A stretch of 64,000 bases of DNA from Spiribacter curvatus (lineage in GTDB: Bacteria > Pseudomonadota > Gammaproteobacteria > Nitrococcales > Nitrococcaceae), in contig NC_022664.1 of NCBI RefSeq assembly GCF_000485905.1, forward strand, positions 868,001 to 932,000, written 5' to 3'. A model generated the notes under the pieces. It was not told the DNA's origin. It was given only the letters and a program-made list of their open reading frames with translations, and did no database searches. Below are positions 7,177 through 25,625 of this stretch, one piece after another. A program made the translations under genes and the position numbers. Position 1 is the stretch's first letter, and each line of letters opens with the position of its first letter.

Positions 7177-7199
7177 GATGGATGCTTTCTCCATGGCGT

Positions 7200-8723: not shown

Positions 8724-8725
8724 GT

Positions 8726-9382
8726 TCACTGGACCTCCAGCGCTACCGGCGTCACAAACCAGTTATCGGGGTTGATCAGTTTGAAAACACCGGTCACCTC
8801 GACTCGCTGACCGGGGAGGGCGTCACGCGCCAGCCCATCGAGCACCTCCGCTTTCATAGCATCGTTAATGCCTGAGGCGGCATCCTGGTACTCGATTTGA
8901 TTGGTGAACTCACCGAAACTGATAGTACCGGTTGCGTCCCGCAAATCTGTACCGTTAACGGCAGGACCCAATTGCACGCGGACGGTCCGATCTTCCTGCA
9001 AGTTTGTGATCGAAACAGTGAAGACGCCGGATCTCCCCTCGTCGACTGTCCCGACGAAATTTACTGGGATAATTGCCCCAACGCCTGCATCGACGCCGTA
9101 TTTGTCGCTTGCCGCGCTGCGGTCAGCTTGGATGGCTTCGCTCAGCGTGGCTGCCTCAACCGCGTTTTCGATCACAAATTCACGGATCCGCGGAAATTCG
9201 CGGGCACCGTACGCTGCTGGATTGAAGGCCATCTCGCGTTGATCCGCCTCGGAACCGCTCTGCACAACGGTTGTATCGACCGCGATGGCGGCGCCCAGGA
9301 TTGCGACACCGATGCCTGCATAGAGTCGTGAGCGCCAAGGCCTGCGCCGGACTATAGGTGTGTCGACGGTAGTAGCCGCCAT
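8726..9382 (-). CDS. DUF2291-family membrane-anchored periplasmic protein
   Basis: A 218-residue protein that looks like DUF2291. It has a short cytoplasmic start with a basic stretch (RRRPWRSR), one hydrophobic segment at about residues 19-36 (LYAGIGVAILGAAIAV), then a soluble domain with NPAAYG, FVGTVDEGRSGVFTVSI, VQLGPAVNGTDLRDATG and ISFGEFTNQIEYQD. I recall this family as a recurring, uncharacterised partner of ribose-type sugar ABC transporters. A strong Shine-Dalgarno, AGGAGGAGAGG, precedes ATG 9382. It is the promoter-proximal gene of the transport operon and sits in the same transcript as the ATPase. A periplasmic accessory role in uptake is inferred from context; no enzymatic motif is visible. 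Confidence 0.75.
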   Translation of the reverse strand: MAATTVDTPIVRRRPWRSRLYAGIGVAILGAAIAVDTTVVQSGSEADQREMAFNPAAYGAREFPRIREFVIENAVEAATLSEAIQADRSAASDKYGVDAGVGAIIPVNFVGTVDEGRSGVFTVSITNLQEDRTVRVQLGPAVNGTDLRDATGTISFGEFTNQIEYQDAASGINDAMKAEVLDGLARDALPGQRVEVTGVFKLINPDNWFVTPVALEVQ

Positions 9383-9440
9383 GCTCCTCTCCTCCTGTCA
9401 TCGTCTCGGCCTTTAATGGCTCTATGCGATATTTGTGGGT

Positions 9441-9456
9441 TAAACGTGTTATTTAT
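9441..9456. promoter_or_regulatory. candidate operator in the ery divergent promoter region
   Basis: GTGTTATTTATCACAC is an almost perfect 16-bp palindrome: the arms GTGTTAT and ATCACAC differ from symmetry at one base pair. It lies in the 171-base gap between the DUF2291/transporter operon and eryA. The core GTGTTAT recurs in GTGTTATAAACAC between the transketolase and eryH genes. A minus-strand TTGACA at about 9461-9466 lies beside it. The most likely binder is EryD or the DeoR protein of this locus; binding is not shown. Confidence 0.5.
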
Positions 9457-9515
9457 CACACAAGATGTCAAGCGGTTGATGGCCGTGCGCTCTCGAGGGT
9501 CAACGCTCCATCCAG

Positions 9516-9546
9516 TTGACACGGCGAGCACGTGATGAAATAAATT
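9516..9546 (+). promoter_or_regulatory. possible eryA promoter giving a nearly leaderless transcript
   Basis: A perfect TTGACA -35 box is at 9516-9521. The best -10 is TAAATT at 9541-9546, with a long 19-base spacer. Transcription would then start within a few bases of ATG 9554. No Shine-Dalgarno sequence precedes that ATG, which fits a leaderless message. The -10 match is only four of six, so this is tentative. Confidence 0.4.
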
Positions 9547-9553
9547 ACACGCA

Positions 9554-11119
9554 ATGGAAGAACATTCAAACAAAGATCTGATCGTTGGCATCGATGCCGG
9601 GACATCAGTCATTAAGGCAGTAGCATTCACGGTCGGTGGGTATCAGATTGGCGCGGCGGCCCGAACCAATCGATATGTCACTGGTGAGGACGGGCGCGTT
9701 GAGCAGTCGATGACCCAGACCTGGGCGGACACGGCGAGCGCACTTCAAGTGCTTGCAGAGAACGTGAAAGGACTGGCATCTCGCACCGCAGCGATTGGGG
9801 TAACCGGCCAAGGCGATGGGACTTGGCTGGTTGACCGCCAAGGCGATCCAGTCGGGAATGCCTGGCTATGGCTTGACTCACGTGCTGCGTTGCTGACCGA
9901 GCGCCTGTCTCATGCCGAGACTGACCCAGATCGATTCGCGGCGACAGGCACTGGGCTGAATACGTGTCAACAGGGCGCACAGATGGCCTACATGGATCAG
10001 CATGACCCTGCGTTACTGGATCGCGCGCGCACGGCGCTCCATTGTAAGGATTGGCTCTACTATCAGCTCACCGGCGTATTGGCCACTGATCCATCTGAGG
10101 CGAGCTTTACCTTCGGCAATTTTCGTACGCGTGACTACGACAGTACGGTCATTAACGCCTTGGGACTGACTCATCGCCGCTCTTTGCTACCGCCAATACT
10201 CGAAGGAACAGCAGCTGGCCATCCACTGAGCCGAGAAGCGGCTAATGCCACAGGCATGCGCGCGGGAACGCCAGTCAGCCTTGGCTATGTAGATATGGTC
10301 ATGAGCGCGCTAGGAGCGGGGCTTCACACAGGTGAGGCTGGGACCGCCTGTTCCGCGATAGGGTCCACTGGCGTACATCTACAAAGCCGCACGACCGATC
10401 AGGTTGTTCTGAATCGCGAACGTACCGGGTATTCGATCTGTTTGCCTGTCGCCGGACAGGTTGCCCAGGTTCAGACGAATATGGCGGCGACGCTCAACAT
10501 CGACTGGATGCTCGACGTAATGGCCGGGTTGCTCGAGGAATTTGGTCAGTCGCCGACGCGATGCGACTTGATGACTCACCTTGATGTCTGGTTACAGCAA
10601 ACGACACCCGCTGAAATCCTCTACCACCCCTACATCTCTGAAGCGGGCGAGCGCGGTCCATTTTTAAACGCCCGAGCCCGCGCCGGTTTTATTGGTCTGT
10701 CTGCGCGACACGGATTCAAAGACATGCTCCGTGGGGTTGTGGACGGGATAGCGCTGGCCGCCGCGGATTGCTATGCGGTCATGGGCGGTACGCCAAGAGA
10801 GCTGCGTCTGAGCGGTGGGGCGGTGCGCTCCCCGATGTTGCGGGCCTCGCTCGCTGCAGCGGTTGGGGCGCCAGTGCGGGTTTGCAGCCGGGATGAGGCG
10901 GGCGCCGCGGGCTGCGCGATGATGGCCGCTGTCTCCATCGGTGCCTATCCCGATATGGACGCCTGCGTCGCTGATTGGGTGGTGCCGCTGTTAGGCGAAG
11001 CGGAGCCGCCGGATTCGTCGATCATGGAGCGTTATCAAATATTACTGTCAGCCTACCGGGAAGCGCGAGAAGCGATGCCTCCGGTCTGGGCGCGGCTCGC
11101 CAATAACAAAGGAGCTTAA
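9554..11119 (+). CDS. eryA: erythritol kinase EryA (FGGY family)
   Basis: A 521-residue FGGY kinase. The ATP loop is IVGIDAGTSVIKAVAF at residues 10-25. GVTGQGDGTWLVD and LHCKDWLYYQLTG lie in the first domain. The probable catalytic base is Asp247 in GYVDMVMSALG. The second domain has LRLSGGAVRSPMLRASLAAAVGAPV. In the erythritol pathway this enzyme phosphorylates erythritol to L-erythritol 4-phosphate in the cytosol. FGGY kinases vary in substrate, so the call rests mainly on context. EryB-, EryC- and EryD-like genes follow in the same order as in the Brucella ery operon, and EryH- and EryI-like genes follow in the same locus. The start has no Shine-Dalgarno. The stop is one base from the eryB GTG. 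Confidence 0.82.
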   Translation: MEEHSNKDLIVGIDAGTSVIKAVAFTVGGYQIGAAARTNRYVTGEDGRVEQSMTQTWADTASALQVLAENVKGLASRTAAIGVTGQGDGTWLVDRQGDPVGNAWLWLDSRAALLTERLSHAETDPDRFAATGTGLNTCQQGAQMAYMDQHDPALLDRARTALHCKDWLYYQLTGVLATDPSEASFTFGNFRTRDYDSTVINALGLTHRRSLLPPILEGTAAGHPLSREAANATGMRAGTPVSLGYVDMVMSALGAGLHTGEAGTACSAIGSTGVHLQSRTTDQVVLNRERTGYSICLPVAGQVAQVQTNMAATLNIDWMLDVMAGLLEEFGQSPTRCDLMTHLDVWLQQTTPAEILYHPYISEAGERGPFLNARARAGFIGLSARHGFKDMLRGVVDGIALAAADCYAVMGGTPRELRLSGGAVRSPMLRASLAAAVGAPVRVCSRDEAGAAGCAMMAAVSIGAYPDMDACVADWVVPLLGEAEPPDSSIMERYQILLSAYREAREAMPPVWARLANNKGA

Positions 11120-11120
11120 T

Positions 11121-12632
11121 GTGACTGATCTACCGACAGTGGATCTCTTCGTGATTGGTGGTGGCATCAATGGCGCCGGCATGGCGCGTGATGCCGCAGG
11201 GCGGGGGCTGAGCGTTGTGTTATGCGAGAAGGATGATCTCGCCGAGGGCACCTCATCCCGCTCAGGTAAACTTGTTCATGGTGGATTGCGCTATCTCGAG
11301 TATTACGAATTCCGACTGGTGCGAGAGGCGCTCATTGAGCGAGAGGTGCTCATGAATTCTGCCCCGCATATTATCTGGCCACTGCGGTTTGTGCTGCCTC
11401 ACTCACCTGAGGATCGTCCAGCCTGGTTGGTACGGCTTGGGCTTTTTCTCTACGACCATCTCGGCGGCCGTAAGCGGTTGCCGGGCACCCGCACGCTCGA
11501 TCTGCGTCGCAGTCCTGAGGGAGCGGCAATTCAAGATCAATATAAACGAGGTTTTGAATACTCGGACTGCTGGGTGGACGATGCGAGATTGGTCGTGTTG
11601 AACGCCCTGGATGCGGCAGAGCACGGCGCGACAGTGCTCACTCGAAGCCCCTGCACGGGCGCCTGGCGTGAAGACAATTACTGGCGGGTGGAGACCACCG
11701 ACCGACTCACTGGCGAGAAAAGTGCATACCGCGCCCGCATGCTGGTTAATACGGCCGGTCCCTGGGTGACGGACATTATTACGCGTGTCGCCCATGCGCG
11801 ATCTACTCGTAACGTCCGACTTGTCAAAGGGTCCCACATCATCGTTCCGAAGTTCTGGGAGGGTGCCAATGCCTACCTGGTCCAGAATCACGACAAGCGT
11901 GTCATCTTCATCAATCCCTACGAGGGGGATAAGGCGCTTATAGGGACGACCGATATCCCGTGGGAGGGTCGGGCAGAGGACGTAGTGGCCGAGGAGGCGG
12001 AGATCGAGTACCTCATCGCAGCCGTGAACCGCTACTTTAAAGAGCAGCTGCAGCGTGGTGATGTCCTGGAGACATTTTCAGGGGTTCGCGCACTGTTTGA
12101 TGATGGCCAGGGTAATCCCTCAGCCGTGACCCGGGACTACGTCTTCGATCTTGATGAAACCGGTGACGCCCCGTTATTGAATGTTTTTGGTGGCAAGATC
12201 ACCACGTTTCGTGAGCTCGCCGAGCGAGGTCTTAAACAGATCCGCCACTATTTCCCGAACATGCGCGATGCATGGACGGACAGCGCGCCGCTGCCAGGTG
12301 GGGATCTGCCCGACGCCGACTATGAAGCCTTTATGCAATCGCTGAAGAGCGACTATCCGTGGATGCCAGTTGAGTTGCGTCAGCATTATGGACGTCTCTA
12401 TGGCACGCGAGCAGCTGCGATTATCCGCGATGCGCACTCACTTGACGGGCTTGGGGAGCATTTTGGTGGAACGTTATATGCAGCTGAGGCGCGTTATTTG
12501 ATTGATAAGGAGTGGGCGCGAACACCGGAAGATGTGCTTTGGCGGCGTACCAAGCATGGGCTTCATCTTAGCGAGGCACAGCGGGATGTATTCGCGGACT
12601 GGTTCCGAAAGGGCCACTACCAGGCTGCTTGA
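11121..12632 (+). CDS. eryB: erythritol-4-phosphate dehydrogenase EryB (GlpD-like flavoprotein)
   Basis: A 503-residue FAD-dependent dehydrogenase of the GlpD/GlpO class. Residues 8-20 hold the dinucleotide motif DLFVIGGGINGAG. EGTSSRSGKLVHGGLRYLE, the family's substrate/FAD loop, follows. Later come VNTAGPWV, RLVKGSHIIVP, IGTTDIPW, FSGVRALF and NVFGGKITTFRELAERG, and the C-terminal helical domain is complete. EryB oxidises L-erythritol 4-phosphate to L-3-tetrulose 4-phosphate at the membrane, passing electrons to quinone. A plain glycerol-3-phosphate dehydrogenase is the alternative, but tight spacing to eryA (one base) and eryC (one base) argues for EryB. GTG 11121 is the start, with AAAGGAG eight bases ahead. 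It is the intact paralogue of the broken dehydrogenase at 1.8-3.5 kb. Confidence 0.82.
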   Translation: MTDLPTVDLFVIGGGINGAGMARDAAGRGLSVVLCEKDDLAEGTSSRSGKLVHGGLRYLEYYEFRLVREALIEREVLMNSAPHIIWPLRFVLPHSPEDRPAWLVRLGLFLYDHLGGRKRLPGTRTLDLRRSPEGAAIQDQYKRGFEYSDCWVDDARLVVLNALDAAEHGATVLTRSPCTGAWREDNYWRVETTDRLTGEKSAYRARMLVNTAGPWVTDIITRVAHARSTRNVRLVKGSHIIVPKFWEGANAYLVQNHDKRVIFINPYEGDKALIGTTDIPWEGRAEDVVAEEAEIEYLIAAVNRYFKEQLQRGDVLETFSGVRALFDDGQGNPSAVTRDYVFDLDETGDAPLLNVFGGKITTFRELAERGLKQIRHYFPNMRDAWTDSAPLPGGDLPDADYEAFMQSLKSDYPWMPVELRQHYGRLYGTRAAAIIRDAHSLDGLGEHFGGTLYAAEARYLIDKEWARTPEDVLWRRTKHGLHLSEAQRDVFADWFRKGHYQAA

Positions 12633-12633
12633 T

Positions 12634-13566
12634 ATGCCCCTTTCCCTATCACTCAACACCAACCCGCTTGTGAATCGGTTTGCCGAACCGGATGATCTGA
12701 TCAGCACGGTGGCATCCCACATCCGTATCCGTGATCTTCAGCTTACCCACGAGTTCATCAACCCTTGCTGGCCAGACGAAACGATCCGACGCCTGACCCG
12801 AGCCATGCAACGATCGCTTGCTCGAACCGGTGTACGAGTGACATCCGGAATGACCGGTCCTTATGGTCGACTCAACCATTTCGGTCATCCTGATCGGGAT
12901 GTTCGCGCCTATTATGTGCGGTGGTTCAAGCGCTTTGCTGACATCATCGCAGAACTTGGCGGGCGGTCGATGGGCACGCAGTTCGCGATTTTCACTTATC
13001 GAGACTTTGATGATCCGCATCGCCGCGAGGCACTGATCAATATCGCTCTGGACTGTTGGGAGGAGGTCGCTGTGCATGCCCGCGCTGCCGGGCTCGATTT
13101 CCTATTCTGGGAGCCGATGAGCATCGGCCGGGAATTTGGTGAAACGATTGAAAGATCCATGGCGTTGCAGCGACGCATCGACGGCGAAGCACTCGCGCTG
13201 CCGCTGTGGATGATGGGAGATATCGATCATGGTGACATCACCAGCGATAACCCCGATGACTATGATCCCTATGCATGGGCGAGGGCGCTCCCGCCGGTTT
13301 CTCCCATCATCCATATTAAGCAGAGTCTCATGGATAAGGGCGGGCATCGACCCTTTACGAGTGAGCATAACCGGTATGGACGGATTCAACCCGAGCCGTT
13401 GCTGGCGGCACTTGCTGGCGGCGGCGCCGAAGACAACGAGATCTGTCTTGAGCTGGGGTTCAAGGAACGTGAGCCGGACGATCGGCGGGTTATCGAACAC
13501 ATAGCGGAAAGCGTCGCCTTTTGGGCCCCGCATATCGAGACCGGGATTAACGATCTCGTCGGATAA
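12634..13566 (+). CDS. eryC: L-3-tetrulose-4-phosphate racemase EryC (xylose isomerase-like TIM barrel)
   Basis: A 310-residue member of the xylose isomerase-like superfamily. Metal/acid residues are spread over the barrel strands: TREF-type LTHEFINP early on, GGRSMGTQFAIF, GLDFLFWEPMSIGREFGET, LWMMGDIDHGDI, IHIKQSL and ICLELGFKEREPDDR. In Brucella, EryC was first called a dehydrogenase but was shown biochemically to interconvert L- and D-3-tetrulose 4-phosphate (Barbier and colleagues, by my memory). The length and position directly after eryB and before eryD match. I chose ATG 12634, one base after the eryB stop, over an upstream start overlapping eryB by about 130 bases. No oxidoreductase cofactor motif is present, consistent with isomerisation. 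Confidence 0.82.
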   Translation: MPLSLSLNTNPLVNRFAEPDDLISTVASHIRIRDLQLTHEFINPCWPDETIRRLTRAMQRSLARTGVRVTSGMTGPYGRLNHFGHPDRDVRAYYVRWFKRFADIIAELGGRSMGTQFAIFTYRDFDDPHRREALINIALDCWEEVAVHARAAGLDFLFWEPMSIGREFGETIERSMALQRRIDGEALALPLWMMGDIDHGDITSDNPDDYDPYAWARALPPVSPIIHIKQSLMDKGGHRPFTSEHNRYGRIQPEPLLAALAGGGAEDNEICLELGFKEREPDDRRVIEHIAESVAFWAPHIETGINDLVG

Positions 13567-13579
13567 GGGAGAGATACGT

Positions 13580-14551
13580 TTGAGGCGAAACGTCAACGGA
13601 TATGGAGCAGATGATCATAGCCTAGCGCTGCGAGCAGCGTGGCTTCACTACGTAGGCGGCCTCACTCAGGCGGCTGTCGCGCGCAAACTAAAGCTCACCT
13701 CCGTCAAGACACACCGTCTGATTGCCCGGGCTGTTGCTGACGGAGCGGTTAAGTTCAGCATTGATGGCGACATCGTTGAGTGTCTGGAGCTGGAGGCCGC
13801 ACTCGCAAAGCGCTATGGATTGTCCGTTTGTGAGGTAACACCCGACCTCGCCGAGTCTGGGCTACCACTGCGCGCCCTCGGCCTTGCGGGTGCCAGTTAT
13901 CTGGCCCGTCTGATTGACCGGTCCGCGGGGCACATGATCGGTCTGGGTCATGGGCGAACATTGGCCGCAGTCGTTAACGAGTTGGCGCAACGCACCGCCT
14001 CTAACGTGCGTTTCGTCTCGCTGCTTGGTGGCCTTACCCGTCATTACGCGGCCAATCCCCATGATGTCATGCACCGGATCGCCCAGCGCACAGATGCGCC
14101 CGCACACGTCATGCCGGTGCCTTTCTGCGCGAACAGTCCGGATGATCGGTCGGTGCTCCTTTCCCAGCACGGAGTGAGTGAGGTGTTCGCAATGGCACAA
14201 ACCGCACCGATCAAGCTTGTCGGCATTGGAACGGTCGATGACGACGCGCAGCTCCTCCGTGCGGGGATGATTGAGGACGCGGACCTGGCCGAGATCATCG
14301 ATGCCGGCGCCGTTGGCGAGCTTCTTGGGCATTTTTTCGATGTGCACGGTGGCCGGATTGCCACCGCGCTTGATGGTCGGACGCTGGCCGTTTCACTGGC
14401 GGAATGCGGGGATGACCAGCTTGTGGCAATCGCGGGCGGCATCGACAAGACAGAGAGCATTGCTGCGGTGCTCCAGAGCGGTTCTCTCACCGGGCTGATC
14501 ATCGACGAGAGCACGGCGCGGGAGGTCCTGCAACGTGGCGATGCCCGGTAA
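13580..14551 (+). CDS. eryD: SorC/DeoR-type sugar-binding transcriptional regulator EryD
   Basis: A 323-residue regulator of the SorC family. The N-terminus holds a short helix-turn-helix at about residues 17-50 (WLHYVGGLTQAAVARKL-LTSVKTHRLIARA). The rest is the SorC effector domain, recognisable by LLGGLTRHYAANPHDVMHRIAQ, PVPFCANS, IGTVDDDAQLLRAGMI, GAVGELLGHFFDVHG and a final IAGGIDKTESIAAVLQSG. EryD represses the ery operon in Brucella and is released by erythritol. The same role is inferred here because the gene is the fourth in the same order. The start is TTG 13580 with GGGAGAG about ten bases ahead. The gene ends nine bases from the convergent transaldolase gene. Candidate binding sites are the palindromes near 9.45 and 17.3 kb. 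Confidence 0.82.
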   Translation: MRRNVNGYGADDHSLALRAAWLHYVGGLTQAAVARKLKLTSVKTHRLIARAVADGAVKFSIDGDIVECLELEAALAKRYGLSVCEVTPDLAESGLPLRALGLAGASYLARLIDRSAGHMIGLGHGRTLAAVVNELAQRTASNVRFVSLLGGLTRHYAANPHDVMHRIAQRTDAPAHVMPVPFCANSPDDRSVLLSQHGVSEVFAMAQTAPIKLVGIGTVDDDAQLLRAGMIEDADLAEIIDAGAVGELLGHFFDVHGGRIATALDGRTLAVSLAECGDDQLVAIAGGIDKTESIAAVLQSGSLTGLIIDESTAREVLQRGDAR

Positions 14552-14560
14552 CCGGATCAT

Positions 14561-15214
14561 TCAAATTATCGTCTGGCCTGTTGCCTCCCAGTCACTGACG
14601 AACTGATCGATACCCTTATTGGTGAGGACGTGACTCGCCAGCCCGCGAATGATCGCAGGTGGGATTGTCGCCACATCGGCGCCGGCCAGGGCCGCCTCTT
14701 TCACATGATTGCCGCTGCGGATCGATGCCGCGAGGATCTCTGTATCAAACCCATAATTATCATAGATCGCCCGGATATCGCGGATAAGCGCCATACTGTC
14801 GAGATTGATATCGTCAAGCCGACCCAGGAAAGGTGAAATGTAGCTGGCTCCCGCCTTTGCTGCCAGAAGGGCCTGATTCGCCGAAAAACATAAGGTGACG
14901 TTGGTTTGGATGCCACGGGAGCGCATCTGTCGGCAGGCCTTGAGTCCGTTGAGCGTGAGTGGCAATTTCACCACAACGTTATCGGCGATATCAGCAAGGA
15001 TCCGTCCTTCTTTCATCATGCCTTCGTAATCCAGAGCGGCTACTTCCGCGGACACGGGGCCGTTTACGATTTCACAGATTTCGGCGACTACTTCCTTGAA
15101 GTCACGTCCTGACTTGGCAATGAGTGATGGATTGGTCGTCACACCATTGAGTAGTCCGTAATCGTTGAGCTCGCTAATATCCTCGGCGATTGCGGTATCA
15201 ACAAAGAATTTCAT
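14561..15214 (-). CDS. tal: TalC-type small transaldolase
   Basis: A 217-residue member of the fructose-6-phosphate aldolase/small transaldolase group. The Schiff-base lysine is Lys83 in VVKLPLT. Other blocks are [39 protein letters not shown], and [26 protein letters not shown]. The residue that separates the two activities (Tyr131 in E. coli FSA, Phe in transaldolases) is Phe129 here, in SPFLGRLDD, so true transaldolase activity is favoured. That fits the locus: transaldolase can use erythrose 4-phosphate as an acceptor, forming sedoheptulose 7-phosphate from fructose 6-phosphate. It is followed on the same strand, upstream, by transketolase with 17 bases between them, so the pair is one operon read toward eryD. 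Confidence 0.88.
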
Positions 15215-15231
15215 GGTCGGTGCTCCTTGGG

Positions 15232-17220
15232 TTATTGAAGGTCAAGTCGATGCTCGGCGCGCTTGACGATGGCATTGGCCGTAATGCCGAAGTGCTCATA
15301 GAGAGCTGGGCCGGGACCCGATGCGCCAAAACCGTCCATGCCAATCACGTCAGCTTCTGAGTCGACGTAACGTGTCCAGCCAAACTTCCCAGCTGCTTCG
15401 ATGGCAATGCGGGGTGCTTCACCCAGCACCTTGGCGCGATAATCGGCCGGTTGTATTTCAAACTGCTCCCAACAGGGCATCGAGACCACATTCACATTAA
15501 TGCCGTACTCTCGGTGCAGGACCTTGGCGGCCTCAACGGCAATCGCCACTTCAGTCCCTGTGCCCAGCAGTGTCAGGGCTTCGACATCGCCGAGCCTGAA
15601 AATGACGTAGGCTCCTCGCGCAGTCATATTCTCTCCACGATCGGTTACTCGTAGTTGTGGTGTTCCCTGTCTGGAGAGGGCGAGTAGTGAGGGTGCGTCA
15701 CGGCTGCGTAGGGCGAGCTCCCAGCACTCCAGCGTCTCTATGGCGTCGGCCGGGCGATAGACATGCAGACCGGGTATCGCGCGCAATGCAGCCAGATGCT
15801 CGATCGGCTGATGAGTGGGACCGTCCTCGCCGAGACCAATCGAATCATGGGTCATCACGAAGATCGTCCCAATTCGCATGAGCGCGGCGAGTCGGATGGC
15901 ATTGCGGGCATAATCCGAGAAAACGAGAAAGGTGCCCCCGAAGGGGATGATCCCGCCATGGTTGTTCATGCCATTCATTGCGGCCGCCATGGCGAACTCA
16001 CGAACACCATAGCCGATGTATCGACCAGGTGATGCGCGTGAGAAAAGCGGCTCAAGAGCCGGTACTCGCGTGAGGTTGGAACCGGTCAGATCAGCCGATC
16101 CGCCCACGAGCTCGGGCACGCAGTCAGCAATCACTTCCAGAGCCATCTGGCTCGCCCTGCGGGTCGCCACCTTCTTCGGATCTGCAAACAGTGCTGAGCG
16201 TGCTGTTGCCACGACCTCGCTAAGCCCCTCCGGAAGCTGCCGACGCATGCGCCGCATGAACGCGTCCCGACGCGATCTCGGCAATGCGTCAATTCTCGCC
16301 TCCCAGTCTTTCCGTGCAGTCACTCCGCGCCGACCGATCTCATGCCATTCCTGTGCGGCTGAGGGCGGAATCACAAATGGTGGCTCGGTCCATCCGAGGG
16401 CTTCGCGAGCGGCCTCCGCCTCCACTGTGCCAAGTGGTGCGCCGTGTGATGCCGCGGTTCCGGACTTCGTTGGTGCCCCATAACCAATGGTTGTTCTCAT
16501 TGCGATCAATGACGGTTTTTCGCTCTCCTCTCGTGCTGCGGTGATGGCAGCGTCGAGCGCTGTTGCATCGTGCCCGTCGCAGCGCTGGACGTGCCAGTGA
16601 CAGGCTGCGAACCGCCCAGGGATATCCTCCGAGAATGAAATGCTGGTGTCGCCGTCAATAGTGATGCCGTTATCGTCATAGAGAACGATGAGTCGCCCAA
16701 GGCCAAGGTGTCCTGCCAGTGAAATGGCCTCCTGGCCAACGCCCTCCTGCAAGCAGCCATCGCCCGCCAGGACATAAGTGTGATGGTTCATCGCATTGGC
16801 GCTGAACTCCCCGCGCAGCATTCGCTCAGCCATTGCCATTCCAACGGCCGCCGCGAGGCCCTGACCAAGCGGCCCCGTGGTCGTTTCAATGCCGGGTAGG
16901 TGGCCGTATTCAGGATGGCCCGCGGTCGGGGAGCCGATTTGCCGGAACTGGCGTAGATACGCCATCGAAACGTCTTCAATACCCGTCAGGTGGAGCAGCG
17001 CATAGAGGAGCATCGAGGCATGGCCATTGGATACGACCAGCCGATCACGATCCGGCCAGTCGGGCGTCGATGCATCAAATCGTAGGTGGTGCCGCGCCAG
17101 AACGGTGATGGCGTCAGCCATGCCCATCGGCGCCCCGGGATGACCGGACTGAGCCTCCTCTACGGCGTCTACCGCCAGCGCACGAATGCAGTTGGCAAGG
17201 GTTGCGTGGTCGCTGGCCAT
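15232..17220 (-). CDS. tkt: transketolase
   Basis: A 662-residue thiamine-diphosphate transketolase. N-terminal blocks are [52 protein letters not shown] and the ThDP-binding [15 protein letters not shown]. The pyrimidine domain has [13 protein letters not shown] and [29 protein letters not shown], including the expected histidines. The C-terminal domain ends in [13 protein letters not shown] and [16 protein letters not shown]. It transfers two-carbon units between ketoses and aldoses in the pentose phosphate pathway. Being inside the ery locus, beside a transaldolase, it probably handles the erythrose 4-phosphate made from erythritol. ATG 17220 is preferred over an upstream ATG because it matches the family start ([14 protein letters not shown]) and has GGGGATT ahead. 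It is divergent from eryH with 97 bases between. Confidence 0.94.
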
Positions 17221-17277
17221 AGCGGCTAATCCCCAAATGTCACAGTTGAGCCGATAATCTAACAACAAAATATGTTA

Positions 17278-17314
17278 TAAAATAGTATATTCGTGTTATA
17301 AACACCATAACAAG
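17278..17314. promoter_or_regulatory. candidate operator between tkt and eryH
   Basis: The 97-base divergent gap is very AT-rich against its surroundings. It contains two copies of GTTATAAA. The second lies in GTGTTATAAACAC, an inverted repeat with arms GTGTT/AACAC around ATA. The shared GTGTTAT core links this site to the palindrome upstream of eryA. A common regulator, EryD or the locus DeoR protein, is the simplest explanation. Neither divergent start codon has a strong -35/-10 pair that I can fix with confidence. Confidence 0.45.
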
Positions 17315-17317
17315 CCG

Positions 17318-18103
17318 ATGAGTACATCTGTGATGAGTGATCAAACGCTCTGGATCGGTACCAGCTGGAAGATGAACAAAAGCCGTTTGGAGTCGGTTGC
17401 CTGGGCGCGACGACTCGCCGCCGCGAGGCTTCCAGGAGGCCTGCAGCCATTCGTGATTCCGCCTTACACCAGCATTGCGCCCGTTCATGAAGTGCTGCGC
17501 GATACGTCTGTGATGGTTGGTGCGCAAAACATGCACTGGGCCGATGCAGGTGCTTGGACTGGAGAGATATCACCCCTGATGGTTCGAGACGTCGGCGCGA
17601 TGCTTGTTGAGCTCGGACACTCTGAGCGTCGGATCCACTTTGGCGAGACCAATGAACAAGTGGGGCTTAAGGTTGAAGCCGCTGTCCGTCATGGACTCAT
17701 TCCGTTGGTCTGCATCGGAGAGAGTCACGAACAGAAGATTGCCGGTCGGGCGGATGAGCACCTCGAAACTCAGGTACGCACCGCGCTGAGCCGAATCGGC
17801 GAGTGCGACGGCAGCCCATCACTGCTTTTGGCCTACGAGCCTGTATGGTCAATTGGCGAGCAAGGTGTGCCCGCGACAACGGGCTATGCCGAGGACCGGC
17901 AAGCGCATATAGCGGACGTTGCCAATTCAGTTCTCGGCCGCTCTGTGCCATGCCTGTACGGAGGATCGGTCGACTCGGCCAATTGTCGCGACTATCTCTA
18001 CAAACCCCATATAGATGGTCTTTTTATCGGTCGGTCAGCATGGTCAGTCGAGGGTTATCTCGAAATCCTTGGCTTATGTGCCGAGGCCGCCAATCGTGTA
18101 TAG
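17318..18103 (+). CDS. eryH: D-3-tetrulose-4-phosphate isomerase EryH (TpiA2, triosephosphate isomerase-like)
   Basis: A 261-residue triosephosphate isomerase homologue. The catalytic histidine and glutamate are kept: His101 in ELGHSERR and Glu174 in LLAYEPVWSIG. The lysine Lys18 is kept in GTSWKMN. The neighbouring asparagine of classical TpiA (N-W-K) is serine (S16-W17-K18), and I recall the same TSWKMN in Brucella TpiA2. The phosphate-gripping CLYGGSVDSANC and DGLFIGRSAW are present. In Brucella this paralogue isomerises D-3-tetrulose 4-phosphate to D-erythrulose-derived aldose phosphate on the way to erythrose 4-phosphate. It is not expected to replace the housekeeping TpiA. rpiB-like eryI follows 21 bases later. 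ATG 17318 has no clear Shine-Dalgarno; ATG 17333 is an alternative. Confidence 0.85.
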   Translation: MSTSVMSDQTLWIGTSWKMNKSRLESVAWARRLAAARLPGGLQPFVIPPYTSIAPVHEVLRDTSVMVGAQNMHWADAGAWTGEISPLMVRDVGAMLVELGHSERRIHFGETNEQVGLKVEAAVRHGLIPLVCIGESHEQKIAGRADEHLETQVRTALSRIGECDGSPSLLLAYEPVWSIGEQGVPATTGYAEDRQAHIADVANSVLGRSVPCLYGGSVDSANCRDYLYKPHIDGLFIGRSAWSVEGYLEILGLCAEAANRV

Positions 18104-18124
18104 CGCATCGACGAGGAGGAGAGA

Positions 18125-18586
18125 ATGAAAATTGCAGTAGCTGGTGACAGCGCAGGAGAAGGACTCGCCGCTGTTGTGGCGGAGCATCTCTCGCAGCACC
18201 ATGAAGTGGCTGATATATCACATACACCCGACGGGCCTGATCGTTATTACGCTTTGCTCGCTGATCGTGTCGCGAAGGTGCTACTCGATGGTACATACGA
18301 TCGGGCGATCCTAATGTGCGGAACGGGGATAGGTGTTGCCATGTCGGCGAACAAGGTTCCGGGTATTCGGGCCGCTCAATGTCACGATACCTATTCCGCA
18401 GAGCGCGCTGCTCTATCCAATAACGCACAGGTCATCACAATGGGTGCGCGGGTGGTTGGGACAGAACTCGCGAAGGCTATTGTTGATGCCTTTCTGGCCT
18501 GCCGCTTCGATCCGCAGGGCCGGTCAGCCGGAAACGTTGCAGCGATCGATCGCGTCGATGCGAAGTACCATGTCGTATCGCTATAG
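18125..18586 (+). CDS. eryI: RpiB-family sugar-phosphate isomerase EryI
   Basis: A 153-residue RpiB/LacAB-family isomerase. It shows the N-terminal [13 protein letters not shown], the catalytic cysteine Cys65 in [14 protein letters not shown], and [32 protein letters not shown], all diagnostic. In Brucella the equivalent enzyme catalyses the last isomerisation, giving D-erythrose 4-phosphate. Elsewhere the family interconverts ribose and ribulose 5-phosphate. GAGGAGGAG seven bases before ATG 18125 is the strongest ribosome site in the locus. It follows eryH by 21 bases and ends the erythritol block. The downstream gap, 18587-18724, contains a GC-rich hairpin at 18625-18639 (CCACCC-GCG-GGGTGG) without a T-run, perhaps a weak terminator. 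Confidence 0.87.
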
Positions 18587-18724
18587 GGAATCGCGAATGT
18601 TGGAAAGCTCAGCTTACGGCCCCGCCACCCGCGGGGTGGGGGTAGCCTCTGACCGTTAATCCCATTATCCTCATCGAGGAAGGTTGACCAACCGGCATTG
18701 TCAATGGGTGACGTGGTGGGATTT

Positions 18725-19891
18725 ATGAGGGCATTAAATACAGCGGCGAGAGTGCTCGCACTTGCGCCGCTTTTGACTGCATGTGCGACATTCGCCGGTG
18801 GGAATCCGGACGATATCGCTGATCCGCAAGGGTCTTCAGAACAGGCATCGGAGGCCACGGCAGGTGGCTCCGGATCGGCCCCCGAGAACGACGCCGGGTT
18901 TCGTGAACGCAGTGAACCAATCCCTGCAGAATCGGCGGCGCCGGCTGAATCGGGAGCAGGGCAGGTGAGCGACTCCGAGGCTGATGGCCCGCTTCAGAAT
19001 GTGCCGCTGGTCATTGATCTGTCCGATCTGCGTGACGACGACGGGCTGGGCAACCCCTCGATCCAGTGGCAGGAATTTGACGACAGTCGAGGGCGTTGGA
19101 CGAAGATAGACGGGGCCACGTCGCAGGGATTCACCCCCAGGCAGCGCCATGTCGGTAACCAGCTGCGCGTCAGCATTGAGTATATCGACGGTCGGGGGAA
19201 TCTCGAATCGATTGTCACAGTCCCGACCCCGCCTGTGCGCAACGTCAATGATGCGCCGATCGGCGAGCTTCAGTTGATCGGTACGCAAGCCGAGTACGAA
19301 ACGCTCAAGGCAGATATCAGCGAGATCCGGGACGAGGATGGCATCGGAACCATTCGGTATTACTGGGAGATCTCTTCTGACGGGCGAACCTGGCAGCGCT
19401 ATCGGGAAGACGAATGGCGGGGCGATACGGTGGTCCTTTCTCAGGACGAGGTGGGGCGCTACATCCGCGCCGGCATTCGTTATAACGATGGATTCGGAGC
19501 CAACGAACAGGTCACGAGTGCCGCGACCGACCCGATACGTAACGTGAACGATCCAGTCCGGGGCGATCTGACATTACGCGGTGATACCCTCGTGGGTCAG
19601 ACGCTGCAGGCGGAGACCGATGCGATCAGCGATCGTGACGGGATCGCGAAGATCACCGTGATCTGGGAATCATCGAATGACGGGCGCACCTGGCGTCGGG
19701 CAGCCGAATCCGCGGACCGGCAGCTGACACTCGGTAACCGATTGGTTGACCGGCAGATCCGTGCGCGCGCCATTGTGGTCGATCAGTTCGGCAACGAAGG
19801 GACCGTTGTCTCCGGGAACGTTGGTCCTGTGGAGAGTATTAATGCCGCGCCGTCCGGCACCATCGAGATACTCTCTGTTGACGAGGACTAG
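18725..19891 (+). CDS. lipoprotein with about three tandem beta-type (cadherin/Ig-like) repeats
   Basis: A 388-residue protein of unknown function. Residues 1-20 are a lipoprotein signal ending in LLTAC (Cys20 lipidated), which decides the start at ATG 18725 over TTG 18698 and ATG 18704. Residues 21-85 are low-complexity, acidic and Ala/Gly/Glu rich. From about 90 there are repeats of roughly 97-100 residues. Each has D-DGLG or DEDGIG, W-SSDGRTW, VG-IRA-I-Y-D-FG, and ends with a (R)NVNDAP-like junction at about 171, 271 and 368. Such units are common in giant RTX/VCBS surface adhesins, where they bind calcium. The protein stops just after the beginning of a fourth unit, so it may be a shortened adhesin. 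Outer-membrane location is inferred. Confidence 0.6.
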   Translation: MRALNTAARVLALAPLLTACATFAGGNPDDIADPQGSSEQASEATAGGSGSAPENDAGFRERSEPIPAESAAPAESGAGQVSDSEADGPLQNVPLVIDLSDLRDDDGLGNPSIQWQEFDDSRGRWTKIDGATSQGFTPRQRHVGNQLRVSIEYIDGRGNLESIVTVPTPPVRNVNDAPIGELQLIGTQAEYETLKADISEIRDEDGIGTIRYYWEISSDGRTWQRYREDEWRGDTVVLSQDEVGRYIRAGIRYNDGFGANEQVTSAATDPIRNVNDPVRGDLTLRGDTLVGQTLQAETDAISDRDGIAKITVIWESSNDGRTWRRAAESADRQLTLGNRLVDRQIRARAIVVDQFGNEGTVVSGNVGPVESINAAPSGTIEILSVDED

Positions 19892-19967: not shown

Positions 19968-21878
19968 CTACCGCGCGTATCGACTCACCCTGACCGTCTC
20001 TAACGCCTCTCGGATCTCCTCGAGGCTGGACGGGTCCTCGATCGTGGCAGGTACAGCCACATCACGCTCCTGACTGAGCTGACGGATCGATTTGCGCAGG
20101 ATCTTGCCGGAGCGGGTCTTGGGAAGTTTATCGACCACCGCGACCGCCTGGAGGTTGGCGATTGCCCCGATCTGCGTTCGAATGACGTCCATGACCGCGT
20201 TCTCGAGCACCGCCGGGTCGATGGTCTGCCCTTCCTTGAGTACGACAAACCCCATGGGCACCTCGCCCTTGAGTTCATCGGCAATGCCAATCACGGCACA
20301 TTCTGCGACCGCCGGATGATGGCCGATCAGCTCCTCCATTTCACCGGTGGACAGGCGATGGCCAGCGACGTTGATGACGTCATCCATACGGCCCATCACG
20401 AAAAGGTAGCCATCTTCGTCGATATAGCCTCCATCTGATGTGTCGTAATAGCCCGGGAAGGCGTTGAGATAAGAGTACCGGAATCGATCATCGTCCTCCC
20501 AGAGCGTCGGCAGGCAGCCGGGAGGCAGGGGGAGTCTCAAAGCGATGTTGCCCTGGGTACCGGCAGGCTGTGGGGAGCCATCGCTGTCGAGGATCGCAAT
20601 TTGGTAGCCCGGTACAGGCAGCGCCGCGGAACCGCTTTTCTCGCGATGCGGTTCAATGCCCATGGGATTAGCGGCGATGGCCCAACCCGTTTCGGTCTGC
20701 CACCAATGATCGATGACCGGCAGGCCGGTAATCGCCTTGATCCATCCATAAGTGGGCGGATCGAGCCGCTCACCGGCCAGGTAGACGGCCTTCAGGCATG
20801 ATAGGTCGTAACCCGCCATCATGGCGGCATCGGGATCTTCCTTGCGGACTGCCCGGAAAGCCGTCGGAGCGGTGAAGAAGGTTTTTACCCGATGCTCGGC
20901 GATCACTCGCCAGAAAGCCCCGGCGTCTGGCGTGCGCACGGGTTTGCCCTCATAGACCACAGTGGTGCAGCCATGGATGAGCGGCGCGTAGACGATATAG
21001 GAGTGGCCCACTACCCAGCCAACATCGGAGGCCGTCCAGAAAACATCTCCGGGATCGAGGTTGTACACCGCATCCATGCTGAAGTTGAGGGCGACGGCAT
21101 AACCGCCGGTATCGCGGACAACGCCCTTGGGTTTTCCGGTGGTGCCCGATGTGTAGAGGATGTAGAGCGGATGGGTGGCGTCCACCGCGACTGGATCGAC
21201 GGGTGAGGCGTCGGCCATCACGCGATGCCAGTCGAAATCACGCGTTGTCGCGTTATTCACCTGCATCGCCGCCTCGCACTCGGGTCGCTGTAGCACCACT
21301 GTGGCGGCGGGTGGACAGTCGCAGGCCTGCAGTGCCTCATCGACCAGCGGTTTGTAGGGCAGGATCCGCGAGACCTCAATCCCGCAGCTCGCGGTTATCA
21401 GCGCCCTGGGCCTGGCATCGTCAATACGCACGGCGAGCTCATGGGGCTGGAAACCACCGAAGACCACCGAGTGGATGGCCCCGAGGCGTGCGCAGGCGAG
21501 CATGGCGACCAATGTCTCGGGGACCATCGGCATGTAGATCACGACGCGATCACCGCATTCCACGCCCAGCGCGCGCAGCCCGCCAGCGAACCGCGCGACC
21601 TCGTCACGGAGTTCGCGGTAAGTGATATGGCGCTGCCGGCCGGTGACCGGCGAGTCGTGGATGACCGCGGTCTGTTCGCCGCGGCCATGGTCGATATGAT
21701 GATCGAGGGCCAGGTGGGCCATGTTGAGCTGACCGCCGGCGAACCACCGGTCAAAGCCCTGATCATCGCGACTGAGAATGGTCTCGGGCGCCTTGAACCA
21801 GTCCAGCCTGGCGGCCTCCTGGCGCCAGAACCCCTCTGGATCGCTGATGGAACGCTCGTAGATATCCTGATAGTGCAT
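19968..21878 (-). CDS. prpE: propionyl-CoA synthetase PrpE
   Basis: A 636-residue acyl-CoA synthetase of the acetyl-CoA synthetase family. The AMP-binding core is LYILYTSGTTGKPKGVVRDTGGY; the VRD-GG variant after PKG is what I know from PrpE rather than Acs. Further blocks are FWTASDVGWVVGHSYIVYAPL, WWQTETGWAI and the acetylatable lysine in PKTRSGKILRK near the C-terminus. The N-terminus (YERSISDPEGFWRQEAARLDW) also fits PrpE. It activates propionate to propionyl-CoA with ATP. GGAGGAGAG precedes ATG 21878. It is the last gene of prpBCDE, 33 bases after prpD. Acs is the main alternative, but the operon settles it. Confidence 0.93.
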   Translation of the reverse strand: MHYQDIYERSISDPEGFWRQEAARLDWFKAPETILSRDDQGFDRWFAGGQLNMAHLALDHHIDHGRGEQTAVIHDSPVTGRQRHITYRELRDEVARFAGGLRALGVECGDRVVIYMPMVPETLVAMLACARLGAIHSVVFGGFQPHELAVRIDDARPRALITASCGIEVSRILPYKPLVDEALQACDCPPAATVVLQRPECEAAMQVNNATTRDFDWHRVMADASPVDPVAVDATHPLYILYTSGTTGKPKGVVRDTGGYAVALNFSMDAVYNLDPGDVFWTASDVGWVVGHSYIVYAPLIHGCTTVVYEGKPVRTPDAGAFWRVIAEHRVKTFFTAPTAFRAVRKEDPDAAMMAGYDLSCLKAVYLAGERLDPPTYGWIKAITGLPVIDHWWQTETGWAIAANPMGIEPHREKSGSAALPVPGYQIAILDSDGSPQPAGTQGNIALRLPLPPGCLPTLWEDDDRFRYSYLNAFPGYYDTSDGGYIDEDGYLFVMGRMDDVINVAGHRLSTGEMEELIGHHPAVAECAVIGIADELKGEVPMGFVVLKEGQTIDPAVLENAVMDVIRTQIGAIANLQAVAVVDKLPKTRSGKILRKSIRQLSQERDVAVPATIEDPSSLEEIREALETVRVSRYAR

Positions 21879-21910
21879 GGGTTCTCTCCTCCAGCATTTT
21901 TTTGTTCCGA

Positions 21911-23338
21911 TCAGATCACATAGAGGTCGACGTACTCATTGACCGGCATTGCCTCGAGTCTCGCCTGCTCGAGTGAGACATCAAGGATGGCGCGCTGCTG
22001 CCGTGGCGGGAAGCGACGCGCGAGGTTGGTCCGGAATTTGTCCTCCAACAGCGGGATGCCTTCTTCGCGCCGGCGCTTGTGGCCGATCGGGTACTCCACG
22101 ATTTCCTCGTCGAGCACCGTGCCGTCGTTGAGTTCGATGGTCAGCGCGTTGGGAATGGAGCGTTTCTGCGGGTCGTGATAGTCGGCGGTGAACGCCGGAT
22201 CCTCGACACAGACAATCTTCTCGCGCAGGGCATCGATGCGCGGATCGGCGGCGGCACTGTCTTCGTAGTCCCGCGCCGTGAGACGCCCGAAGATCAGCGG
22301 CACGGCGACCATATACTGTACGCAGTGATCCCGGTCGGCGGGATTGTTGAGCGGACCCTGTTTGTCGATGATGCGGATGCAGGCCTCATGGGTGCGGATG
22401 TTGATGTGCCTGATGTCGTCCGATGACCGACCGGCCTCGGCGAGCCGACGGTGCAGCGTCACCGCCGCTTCCACCGCTGTCTGGGAATGGAATTCCGCCG
22501 GGTAGCTGATCTTGAACAGGACGTTCTCCATCACATAGCTGCCATAGGGCCGCTGGAAGCTGAACGCCTCGCCATTGAAGAGCACATCGTAGAAGCCCCA
22601 GGTTGGCGCGGTCAGGACGGTTGGATACCCCATCTCACCGGTCTTCGCCATCAGCGCCAGCCGTACACCCCGGGCGGTGGCGTCGCCGGCCGCCCAGGAC
22701 TTACGACTGCCGGCATTGGGATAGTGACGGTAGGTGCGCAATGACTGGCCATCCACCCAGGCGAGCGATACCGCATTGATGATCTCGTCGCGGGACAGAC
22801 CGAGCATCTCGGCAACCACTGCGGTGGTCGCGACTTTCACCAGCACCACATGATCCAGCCCGACCCGATTGAACGAGTTATCCAATGCGATCACACCCTG
22901 AATCTCGTGGGCCTTCACCATGCCGATCAATACCTCGCGCATGGTCAGGGGCGAGCGGCCTTCGGCAACGGCCGTTCGTGACAGCCAGTCTGCCGCGGCG
23001 AGGATGCCGCCGAGGTTGTCGGAGGGATGGCCCCATTCCGCGGCAAGCCAGGTGTCGTTGAAATCGAGCCAACGGATCATAGCGCCGATGTTGAAGGCGC
23101 CCTGAACCGGATCAAGCTGGAACTGCGTGCCCGGCACCTTGGTGCCGTTGGGCACGGTCGTGCCCTGGATCACCGGACCGAGCAGCTTCGTGCAGGCCGG
23201 ATACTCCAGTGCCTCAAGGCCACACCCCAGCGTGTCGATCAGGCAATTGCGGGCGGTTTCGAGCGCAATGGCGCGATCAATGGGATAGTCCCGGACATAG
23301 TCGACGATGTCGATCAGGACCTGGTCGGTATTGCTCAT
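21911..23338 (-). CDS. prpD: 2-methylcitrate dehydratase PrpD
   Basis: A 475-residue MmgE/PrpD-family dehydratase. The N-terminal blocks are [31 protein letters not shown], with [28 protein letters not shown] after them. The centre has [33 protein letters not shown], and the C-terminal part has [18 protein letters not shown]. These are characteristic of PrpD rather than the iron-sulfur AcnD. The enzyme dehydrates 2-methylcitrate to 2-methyl-cis-aconitate, which an aconitase must rehydrate; no aconitase gene is in this window. AAGAGGAGC precedes ATG 23338. An upstream start would overlap prpC, so ATG 23338 is preferred. Confidence 0.94.
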
Positions 23339-23363
23339 GAGCGGTGCTCCTCTTGCTCGTTGA

Positions 23364-24515
23364 TCAGTCGCGCTCATGGAGCGGCACGAATGTCAGGTTG
23401 TCGGGGCCGATGTAGTTGGCGCTGGGGCGGATGATCTTGTTGTCCTGGCGCTGCTCGATGATATGCGCGGCCCAGCCGGAGGTCCTCGAGATCACGAACA
23501 GGGGCGTGAAAAGAGCGGTTGGGATGTCCATCGCGTTGAATGCGACGGCCGAGAACCAGTCGAGGTTAGGGAACATCTTCTTCGAATCCCACATGACCGA
23601 CTCGATCCGCTCGGCAATCTGGAACATGCGGGTATTGCCATTATTGTCGGCGAGCTCACGGGCGACCCGCTTGATCACCTCGTTGCGCGGATCACTGATG
23701 GTATAGACCGGATGACCGAAGCCGATGACGACCTCTTTGTTCCCGATCCGCTCGCGGATATCGGTTTCCGCCTCATCGGCGCCACCGTAGCGCTGCTGGA
23801 TCGCGAAGGCGGCTTCATTGGCGCCGCCGTGCTTGGGGCCGCGCAGGGCACCGATAGCCCCGGTCACTGCCGAGTACATGTCCGATCCGGTGCCGGCAAT
23901 GACCCGCGCGCTGAAGGTAGAGGCGTTGAACTCATGCTCGGCATAGAGCGTGAGCGCGGTGTGCATGGCGCGTTCCCAGTCTTTTGATGGCGCCTCTCCG
24001 TGGAGTAGATGCAGGAAGTGCGCGCCAATGGACTCATCCCCAGTCTCGACCTCGATCCGCCGGCCGTTGTGGCTGAAGTGATACCAGTACAGGAGCATCG
24101 AGCCGAGCGAGGCCAGCAGTCGATCCGCGATGCCGCGGGCACCGGCCTCGTTGTGGTCATCTTTCTCGGGCAGTGTGCAGCCGAGCAGTGAGACGCCGGT
24201 TCGCATGACATCCATCGGATGGGCTGACGCGGGTAGCTGCTCGAGTGCTTTTTTGACGGGATCGGGCAGACCACGCAGGCGCTTGAGTTCGGCCTTATAG
24301 CGGCGCAGTTCATTGGTAGTCGGCAGCCGACCGTGGACCAGCAGGTGTGCGGTCTCCTCGAAATCGCACCCCTCGGCCAGATCGAGAATGTCATAGCCGC
24401 GGTAGTGCAGATCATTGCCGGTGAGGCCAACGGTGCACAGTGCTGTGTTACCAGCGGTGACGCCAGACAGGGCGACCGACTTCTTGGGCCTGGGTGTTGG
24501 GGTCTGTTCACTCAT
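23364..24515 (-). CDS. prpC: 2-methylcitrate synthase PrpC
   Basis: A 383-residue citrate synthase-family enzyme of the short PrpC type. [21 protein letters not shown] opens the protein, the PrpC-specific start. The catalytic His/His/Asp blocks are visible as [38 protein letters not shown], and [49 protein letters not shown] closes the fold. It condenses propionyl-CoA with oxaloacetate to 2-methylcitrate. ATG 24515 overlaps the prpB stop by four bases (ATGA), showing translational coupling. Order and neighbours exclude the housekeeping citrate synthase. Confidence 0.95.
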
Positions 24516-25405: not shown

Positions 25406-25445
25406 GGCGTCTCTCCTCGTTAACCACGGTGTCTACCCCGTTGAC

Positions 25446-25461
25446 TGCAAGCGACGTGCCA
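25446..25461 (-). promoter_or_regulatory. sigma-54 promoter of prpBCDE
   Basis: On the minus strand the sequence is TGGCACG-TCGC-TTGCA. This is a perfect match to the -24/-12 consensus TGGCACG-N4-TTGC(A/T). It lies 41 bases before the prpB start and faces away from prpR, a sigma-54 activator gene. RpoN-dependent control of propionate genes is established in enterics. Confidence 0.88.
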
Positions 25462-25549
25462 GTCGCCCGAAAATGATCGCATGAAGGGCGTAAGGCGCTG
25501 ATATGAAACGGAGCGCTCGATTTTCCTCGACACTCGCATCAGCGCCGGC

Positions 25550-25598: not shown

Positions 25599-25625
25599 CG
25601 TCGGGCCAACGCTCAGGGAGGCGGG

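Follow-up and report, generated by a model that had tools for sequence, protein, structure and literature searches.

A transketolase-transaldolase operon in the erythritol locus of Spiribacter curvatus: a probably island-borne tkt beside a talC of the genus's own type

The window, a 64,000-nucleotide stretch of Spiribacter curvatus (contig NC_022664.1, positions 868,001 to 932,000), is part of a single-contig genome of 1,926,631 bases, here called G000; congeners were labelled G009-G021. It contained clustered homologues of eryABCD, eryH and eryI, which by family models and synteny constitute a putative erythritol (ery) catabolic locus, and, within that locus, a compact operon of two minus-strand genes encoding a transketolase (Tkt) and a small transaldolase (TalC). 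The first gene, tkt (15232-17220; 662 aa), was followed after a 17-bp gap containing AAGGAG by talC (14561-15214; 217 aa), whose product was assigned by TIGR00875, alignment and tree to the genus-native form of the small fructose-6-phosphate aldolase (FSA)/TalC type, with Lys83 and Phe129. The tkt ATG was at 17220, and the longest frame reached a TTG at 17268. The operon was convergent with eryD (sugar-binding transcriptional regulator; 13580-14551, plus strand), the two stop codons lying 9 bp apart, and divergent from eryH (TIM-type isomerase by family match and synteny; 17318-18103, plus strand). Position, strand, gene families and spacing all agreed with the layout described in the initial annotation.

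The remaining ery genes were also on the plus strand: eryA (FGGY kinase; 9554-11119) and eryB (GlpD-like dehydrogenase; 11121-12632), both by family match; eryC (AP_endonuc_2-fold isomerase; 12502-13566), with an uncertain true start that was set to 12637 for comparisons; and eryI (18125-18586), a D-erythrulose-4-phosphate isomerase of the RpiB family that scored 248.3 bits against a cut-off of 240 in the NCBIfam model NF051858. An ATP-binding cassette (ABC) transporter operon (DUF2291 lipoprotein, ATPase, permease, binding protein) together with a second FGGY kinase occupied 3482-9382 on the minus strand. From 901 to 18570 the window was collinear with the ery island of G018 at 72.6% DNA identity, in the order DeoR-type regulator, GlpD-like gene, second FGGY kinase, ABC transporter, eryABCD, talC/tkt (minus strand), and eryHI. 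Tkt scored 780.1 bits against a cut-off of 682.25 in TIGR00232 (tktlase_bact) and carried a GDG..N motif at position 153.

One further full Tkt (52% identical; G000:350435-352414) was encoded in the genome, next to gap, pgk and pyk genes, as was one further TalC (79% identical; G000:1212743-1213390). The island genes are thus not the only tkt and tal of the genome, the outcome that the initial annotation had named first as speaking against its reading. Copy numbers were compared across a genus sample of G000 and 13 further genomes, of which 5 were below 90% complete. An eryA gene (E <= 1e-60) was found in 3 of the 14 genomes (G000, G011 and G018), and only these three had two full Tkts; ten had one, and the 74%-complete G015 had none (second Tkt vs eryA, Fisher 0.0027, kinship ignored). 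The Tkt of the island is an extra copy. TalC was present in 14/14 genomes and in two copies in G000 only. The genus was searched for transaldolases with the TalC protein and the TalA/B model TIGR00874; the latter had no match over its cut-off in any of the 14 genomes, its weaker matches being the TalC genes. By this search the talC of the ery locus was the only transaldolase gene found in G011 and G018. A separate other copy existed in each ery-bearing genome for tkt (3/3) and in one for talC (1/3), so the two genes do not qualify together as an accessory pair. The description of the pair as dedicated therefore suits tkt, an extra copy that tracks eryA in 3/14 genomes; it fails for talC, for which neither G011 nor G018 yielded any other transaldolase gene and which is of the genus's own type and site.

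In a tree of 43 TalCs (G015 left out), nine TalCs of alphaproteobacterial ery loci formed one clade with five others (14 rows, 100/100), and the three genus ery TalCs fell outside it. The ery TalC of G011 paired with that of the ery-less G020 (100/99) and the ery TalC of G018 with that of the ery-less G009 (99/80). The ery TalC of G000 belonged to no starred group and was most like the TalC of G016 (86%); the native copy of G000 paired with G021 (100/98). TalCs found elsewhere in 15 genomes reached through ery loci were more distant, at 61-68% identity to the window TalC (L147 left out). Identities of 77-78% to several alphaproteobacterial ery TalCs and of 73% to a further one had suggested that the ery talC was imported from Alphaproteobacteria; this was rejected because the genus ery TalCs lie among the genus TalCs and outside the alphaproteobacterial clade. 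The ery TalC of Tropicibacter (L162 near 19100) paired with the TalC of G082, a gammaproteobacterium outside the genus (L217:54-704; 97/92), a hint of talC exchange between classes.

The Tkt tree, in which some rows were partial and one outgroup branch was very long (L163, of 334 aa, and L012 left out), grouped the three genus ery Tkts in one clade (97/100) beside the alphaproteobacterial ery Tkts, whose own order was mostly unresolved. The window Tkt was 63-71% identical to the Tkts of alphaproteobacterial ery loci. Together, the Tkt tree and identities and the TalC tree indicate that Tkt probably came with the ery island and that TalC, judged by its sequence relationships, is of the genus's own type and embedded in that island.

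At seven ery-less sites (the native site of G000, and G009, G010, G014, G019, G020 and G021) talC adjoined a gene for a HIT-domain protein. The distance between the two was 0-19 bp at six of these sites; G020 was the exception, with a 252-aa gene in between. An EamA transporter gene was found on the other side of talC, directly in G000, G020 and G021 and one gene further in G009 and G010, and was not seen beside talC in G014 or G019. G012, G013, G015 and G017 had talC with other neighbours, and the contig of G016 ended too soon to show the site. The 252-aa gene of G020 had no Pfam match; in G011 a version without the first 71 residues (167 aa) stood directly before the island (L013:5212-5715, L062:8232-8990).

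In G011 the ery island occupied the usual talC site, in the order HIT side, eryI-eryH, tkt, talC, eryD to the DeoR gene, EamA side. The ery-less site of G020 (3300 bp) matched G011 in pieces: 1-897 and 1105-1620 were the HIT side; 1646-2326 (681 bp, talC with about 24 bp upstream) matched at 93% DNA identity and had island DNA on both sides in G011; and 2353-3298, the EamA side, matched at 87%. Compared with G020, G011 was missing 25 bp of the site at the eryI-eryH-tkt side and 26 bp at the eryD to DeoR side. G018 had identical talC edges (G020 1646-2326, 83%); the HIT gene lay to one side, and several further genes stood between the other side and an EamA-type gene. In G000 the native site was unbroken from talC to EamA and the island lay elsewhere, beside a prp-like cluster; no remnants of the HIT site were found beside it. 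Between G000 and G011, island genes were 62-88% identical (EryA 73, EryB 83, Tkt 73, EryH 62, binding protein 88) and core genes 83-93% (HIT 83, EamA 89, KatG-like 91, native Tkt 93). The lower likeness of the island genes suggests, short of proof, that G000 received its island, including talC, from another lineage, which would explain its two talCs.

The tight HIT-talC spacing at six ery-less sites favours a later insertion on both sides of talC, and capture of the native gene by such an insertion is the more likely course, though not a settled one. That a circular island entered through a single crossover in talC was rejected, since this would leave talC at both island ends and talC lies inside the island. 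A less probable but still serious alternative is that the island was ancestral at the talC site of the genus and that most species have since lost it while keeping talC, with no capture at all. The identical talC edges of G011 and G018 point this way, as the talCs themselves follow other pairs (G011 with G020 and G018 with G009, both partners ery-less); these shared edges could come from an older island that G020 and G009 have since lost, or from recombination around talC that spread the island. The ery genes of G011 and G018 (EryA 80%, Tkt 82%, EryD 84%) also differ little more than the flanking 725-aa KatG-like protein (87%). Such losses would, however, have had to restore a spacing of 0-19 bp at six of seven ery-less sites, and TalC is present in 14/14 genomes against 3/14 for eryA.

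EryABCHI would deliver erythrose 4-phosphate (E4P). TalC would convert E4P and fructose 6-phosphate (F6P) to sedoheptulose 7-phosphate (S7P) and glyceraldehyde 3-phosphate (G3P), and Tkt would convert S7P and G3P to ribose 5-phosphate (R5P) and xylulose 5-phosphate (Xu5P), and Xu5P and E4P to F6P and G3P. With the cell's own Rpi and Rpe, three E4P would give one F6P and two G3P. In stoichiometric computations with E4P as sole input and one or two products, neither Tkt alone nor Tal alone had a steady state; the two together gave 2 E4P -> R5P + G3P, and adding Rpi and Rpe also allowed 3 E4P -> F6P + 2 G3P. The bisphosphatase route needed Tkt, Tpi, Rpi and Rpe and could end in F6P alone. The module is not self-contained, as had been proposed, because Tkt and Tal leave R5P and the single matches to rpe (G000:365635) and rpiA (G000:1831527) lie outside the island.

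The tal gene of Brucella presumably lies away from the ery operon. The gene is given as BAB1_1813, and in Brucella suis 513 a tal mutant and an fba mutant each grew on erythritol and an fba tal double mutant did not (PMC11005471). As in the pathway proposed here, the route described there takes E4P into the pentose phosphate reactions either by Tal and Tkt or by Fba/Fbp-Bbp (PMC11005471, citing Barbier 2014). In Escherichia coli equipped with an ery cluster, erythritol raised the expression of tal and tkt genes, and tal/tkt overexpression raised the final optical density nearly three-fold (PMC10190533). From these results, an outlet pair in the locus is expected to relieve a known limit on erythritol use, and may do so in S. 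curvatus.

Other ery loci were collected by a profile scan of genome contigs with an EryA alignment, from which the best 80 of 569 relatives were kept. Sixty of the 80 loci held both eryD and eryH and were counted, a gene being near when within 4.5 kb of an ery gene. L012 was left out as a duplicate of L105, and the plasmid loci L100-L104, found through tkt or eryA matches, were outside these 60-locus counts and inside the 67-locus counts. In the 60 loci, tkt was near ery genes in 14, talC in 7, fba in 11, fbp in 18, and any of them in 24. All 14 loci with tkt also had talC, fba or fbp, against 10 of the 46 loci without tkt (Fisher 1.1e-7); an independent-pairs test had 5 pairs on starred branches, with a median p of 0.5, and thus no power, so the Fisher value is not independent evidence. 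When the 67 loci were clustered by EryA, tkt clusters had a partner gene in 18/18 cases at 95% identity and 11/11 at 80%. talC and fba occurred together in 0/60 loci and talC and fbp in one (Donghicola, without fba in the 14 kb seen). Among the 36 loci with no outlet gene within 4.5 kb, 14 had an fba match further off in the analysed stretch, which ended 10 kb from eryA, so that this class is an upper bound for the lack of an outlet gene. Of 369 genomes sampled from the class, 2 had an EryA match (E <= 1e-110), and one of these was the genome of the window.

In plasmid records, Aestuarium and Marivivens combined tkt with talC, Marinovum algicola (with eryA-D named by its depositors) had talC alone, and Roseinatronobacter, Paracoccus, Thalassospira and Roseibium had tkt with fbp and fba. 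Behind eryI of Brucella tritici (L181:17200-21200), matches to fba (75%), an fbp-like gene (49%) and tkt (63%) are possible E4P outlet genes. The initial annotation had set the window against the classical Brucella ery operon, which ends at E4P and leaves the rest to housekeeping enzymes. This contrast stands for some loci and fails for many others, since many alphaproteobacterial ery loci, including one of Brucella tritici, have tkt, talC or fba/fbp beside the ery genes. The pattern of outlet genes fits the Brucella genetics, in which Tal or Fba/Fbp-Bbp is needed on erythritol.

The closest parallels to the window were the loci of Aestuarium zhoushanense, Marivivens sp. JLT3646 and Donghicola tyrosinivorans, with eryI-eryH divergent from a tkt-talC operon that converges with eryD, followed by eryCBA and the ABC operon. 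Unlike the window, they had eryR between eryH and tkt, an alcohol dehydrogenase gene beside eryD (Aestuarium and Marivivens), fbp in addition (Donghicola), and TalCs of another clade. In Roseinatronobacter sp. S2 and the other tkt-fbp-fba loci, tkt held the same slot and orientation as in the window, with the partner genes behind it; in contrast to the window, E4P would there reach S7P through sedoheptulose bisphosphate (SBP) and not through transaldolase. Rhizobium johnstonii 3841 shared eryABCD, eryRHI, an ABC transporter with DUF2291, and a second kinase with a GlpD-like gene; unlike the window, it had no tkt or talC in the 34 kb seen, and fba at the far end. In another sugar cluster, on plasmid pRM41A of Sinorhizobium meliloti Rm41 (L208:11002-14654; kinase, short-chain dehydrogenase/reductase, ABC transporter, split transketolase), tpiA, tkt and fsa stood in a row, the TalC belonging to the same clade as the alphaproteobacterial ery TalCs.

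In the 2013 survey of 19 ery loci by Geddes et al., the words "transaldolase" and "transketolase" occur 0 times, and fba near rpiB is mentioned (PMC3599248). Among the erythritol papers listed, from a collection covering few subscription journals and judged by title and the start of the abstract, none described tkt or talC in ery loci, and the same collection had no paper on Spiribacter with transaldolase.

The divergent promoter region of tkt and eryH (17221-17317) contained the candidate operator that had been proposed for the two genes, two TGTTATAAA direct repeats 21 bp apart (17273-17302, plus strand), the same in 3/3 genus ery loci. In the form TGTTATAAA-N12-TGTTATAAA it occurred once in the window and had 0 matches in 100 shuffles. 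TGTTATAA was present twice, 21 bp apart, in the tkt/eryH region of all three genus loci. Among 67 promoter regions of eryR or eryH, 27 carried such a pair (<=4 mismatches), where shuffles that keep single-base composition only predicted 1.15; the consensus was taken from the window's own sequence, and many Rhizobium rows are close kin. On this count the 21-bp-spaced repeat looks like an operator of the eryRHI promoter, and its presence between tkt and eryH makes it probable that tkt-talC is co-regulated with eryHI. Both the operon and the oppositely transcribed eryHI would start from this single promoter region with its DeoR-type operator, and the outlet and the last isomerases would then be made together.

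The DeoR/GlpR-family gene at the far end of the island (887-1741, minus strand) is a candidate regulator: with the EryR of Aestuarium as query, it was the best match in G000, and its counterparts were the best matches in G011 and G018. The eryA/ABC promoter region contained a weak palindrome-like stretch (9447-9460, plus strand) whose exact form, TGTGATATATCACA, was present in G018 only and degenerate in G000 and G011; in the window it was not above chance (2 matches at <=3 mismatches vs 1.07 expected). Published work has located an EryD operator at eryA (PMC10190533).

The arrangement of tkt and talC is real and sensible, and outlet genes in ery loci are not unique to the window. The pair is likely to be the outlet of the erythritol pathway, Tkt having come with the island and a native-type TalC having become part of it. 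Tkt would have arrived with an ery island whose relatives are alphaproteobacterial, and TalC would have joined at the site where the native gene is flanked by island DNA; in the window's genome the island lies at a different place and includes talC, which gives that genome two copies. The gene identities and layout, the copy numbers, the trees, the talC site enclosed by island DNA in two congeners and the operator repeat were observed; enzyme activities, induction, flux, and the direction and order of transfer are inferred from them.

Several observations weigh against this interpretation. Approximately unbiased (AU) tests (p 0.168, 0.234 and 0.319) neither showed nor rejected a single genus TalC clade, and the island talC of G000 may simply be redundant. 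Tkts of non-ery plasmid clusters reached 61-66% identity to the window Tkt, making its link to ery loci one of degree. A gammaproteobacterial ery locus of another family (G375) had no tkt or talC in the 16 kb seen. As to regulation, the operator pair was found in the window only at tkt/eryH and not at eryA, eryR was absent from its place beside eryH in the genus ery loci, the candidate regulator matched EryR at a low 38%, and the published work on Ochrobactrum located no EryD or EryR site in the interval from eryD to eryR (PMC10190533).

An unlikely alternative is that tkt-talC was carried along as a general sugar-catabolism cassette and has no particular function in erythritol use. In its favour, the same TalC clade occurs with tkt in the sugar cluster of Sinorhizobium meliloti Rm41 described above and, lacking tkt, in Maritalea and Ruegeria, and 36 of 60 ery loci have no such gene within 4.5 kb. 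Set against it are the identical placement and direction of the genes, between eryD and eryR/eryH, in other hosts, the constant company of a partner gene (14/14 loci with tkt), and the need for E4P to exit through Tkt with Tal or an SBP route.

The identification of TalC as a transaldolase is well supported by its sequence. TalC scored 284.3 bits against a cut-off of 245.95 in TIGR00875 (fsa_talC_mipB), and stayed below the cut-offs of two FSA models, NF009296 (PRK12653; 141.6 vs 306) and NF009299 (PRK12656; 124.5 vs 214). Its Phe129 aligned with Tyr131 of Escherichia coli FsaA and its Schiff-base Lys83 with FsaA Lys85; Phe129 favours transaldolase activity, as argued in the initial annotation. 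Phe129 was invariant in 10 aligned TalCs, including the other copy of G000, and the closest solved structures, 1vpx and 3r8r, are both named transaldolase. In E. coli TalB the single Phe-to-Tyr change F178Y creates an F6P aldolase, with a 70-fold gain in F6P-forming activity (PMC3962226). That TalC instead cleaves F6P to dihydroxyacetone and G3P, as the NCBI title of the TIGR00875 family (fructose-6-phosphate aldolase) and the annotation of relatives as fsa or F6P aldolase would have it, is very improbable given Phe129, the TalB result, the two FSA models, the structures, and the standing of the TalC type as the sole transaldolase-type gene found in 13/14 genus genomes.

More tentatively, with somewhat less than even confidence, ery loci may in general carry an interchangeable E4P outlet (talC, or fba and fbp, with or without tkt) beside eryRHI, its transaldolase drawn from at least two separate TalC lineages. 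In the genus this place would be filled by the cell's own transaldolase gene, in two species the only one, so that a central pentose-phosphate step would be encoded inside, and possibly driven by, a catabolic operon. The locus matches in genomic terms two experimental findings: the dependence of erythritol use in Brucella on either a transaldolase or an aldolase/bisphosphatase pathway, and the better growth on erythritol of engineered cells given additional Tal and Tkt. It is also an instance in which the building of an operon can be read down to the nucleotide, with a native gene flanked by the two halves of a catabolic island; the genus has small genomes, and in 13/14 of them no other transaldolase gene was found.

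Further features were noted in and beside the island. The second GlpD-like gene of the island (1803-3524, minus strand) was split in the window into two frames of 203 and 340 aa; the same gene was unbroken in G018 (L012:4410-6095, 561 aa) and G011 (L187:1800-3479, 559 aa). Directly behind eryI, a 397-aa frame (18698-19891, plus strand) with a lipoprotein-like start and repeated blocks, seen by inspection, had no Pfam or NCBIfam match and no counterpart in the compared congener stretches. The GC fraction was 0.56-0.60 up to 19.5 kb of the window and 0.61-0.65 from 19.5 to 30 kb. Adjoining the island, 19968-27554 contained genes for an acyl-CoA synthetase, MmgE/PrpD, citrate synthase, a phosphoenolpyruvate (PEP) mutase/isocitrate lyase-type protein and a PrpR-type sigma-54 activator, together a methylcitrate-like cluster.

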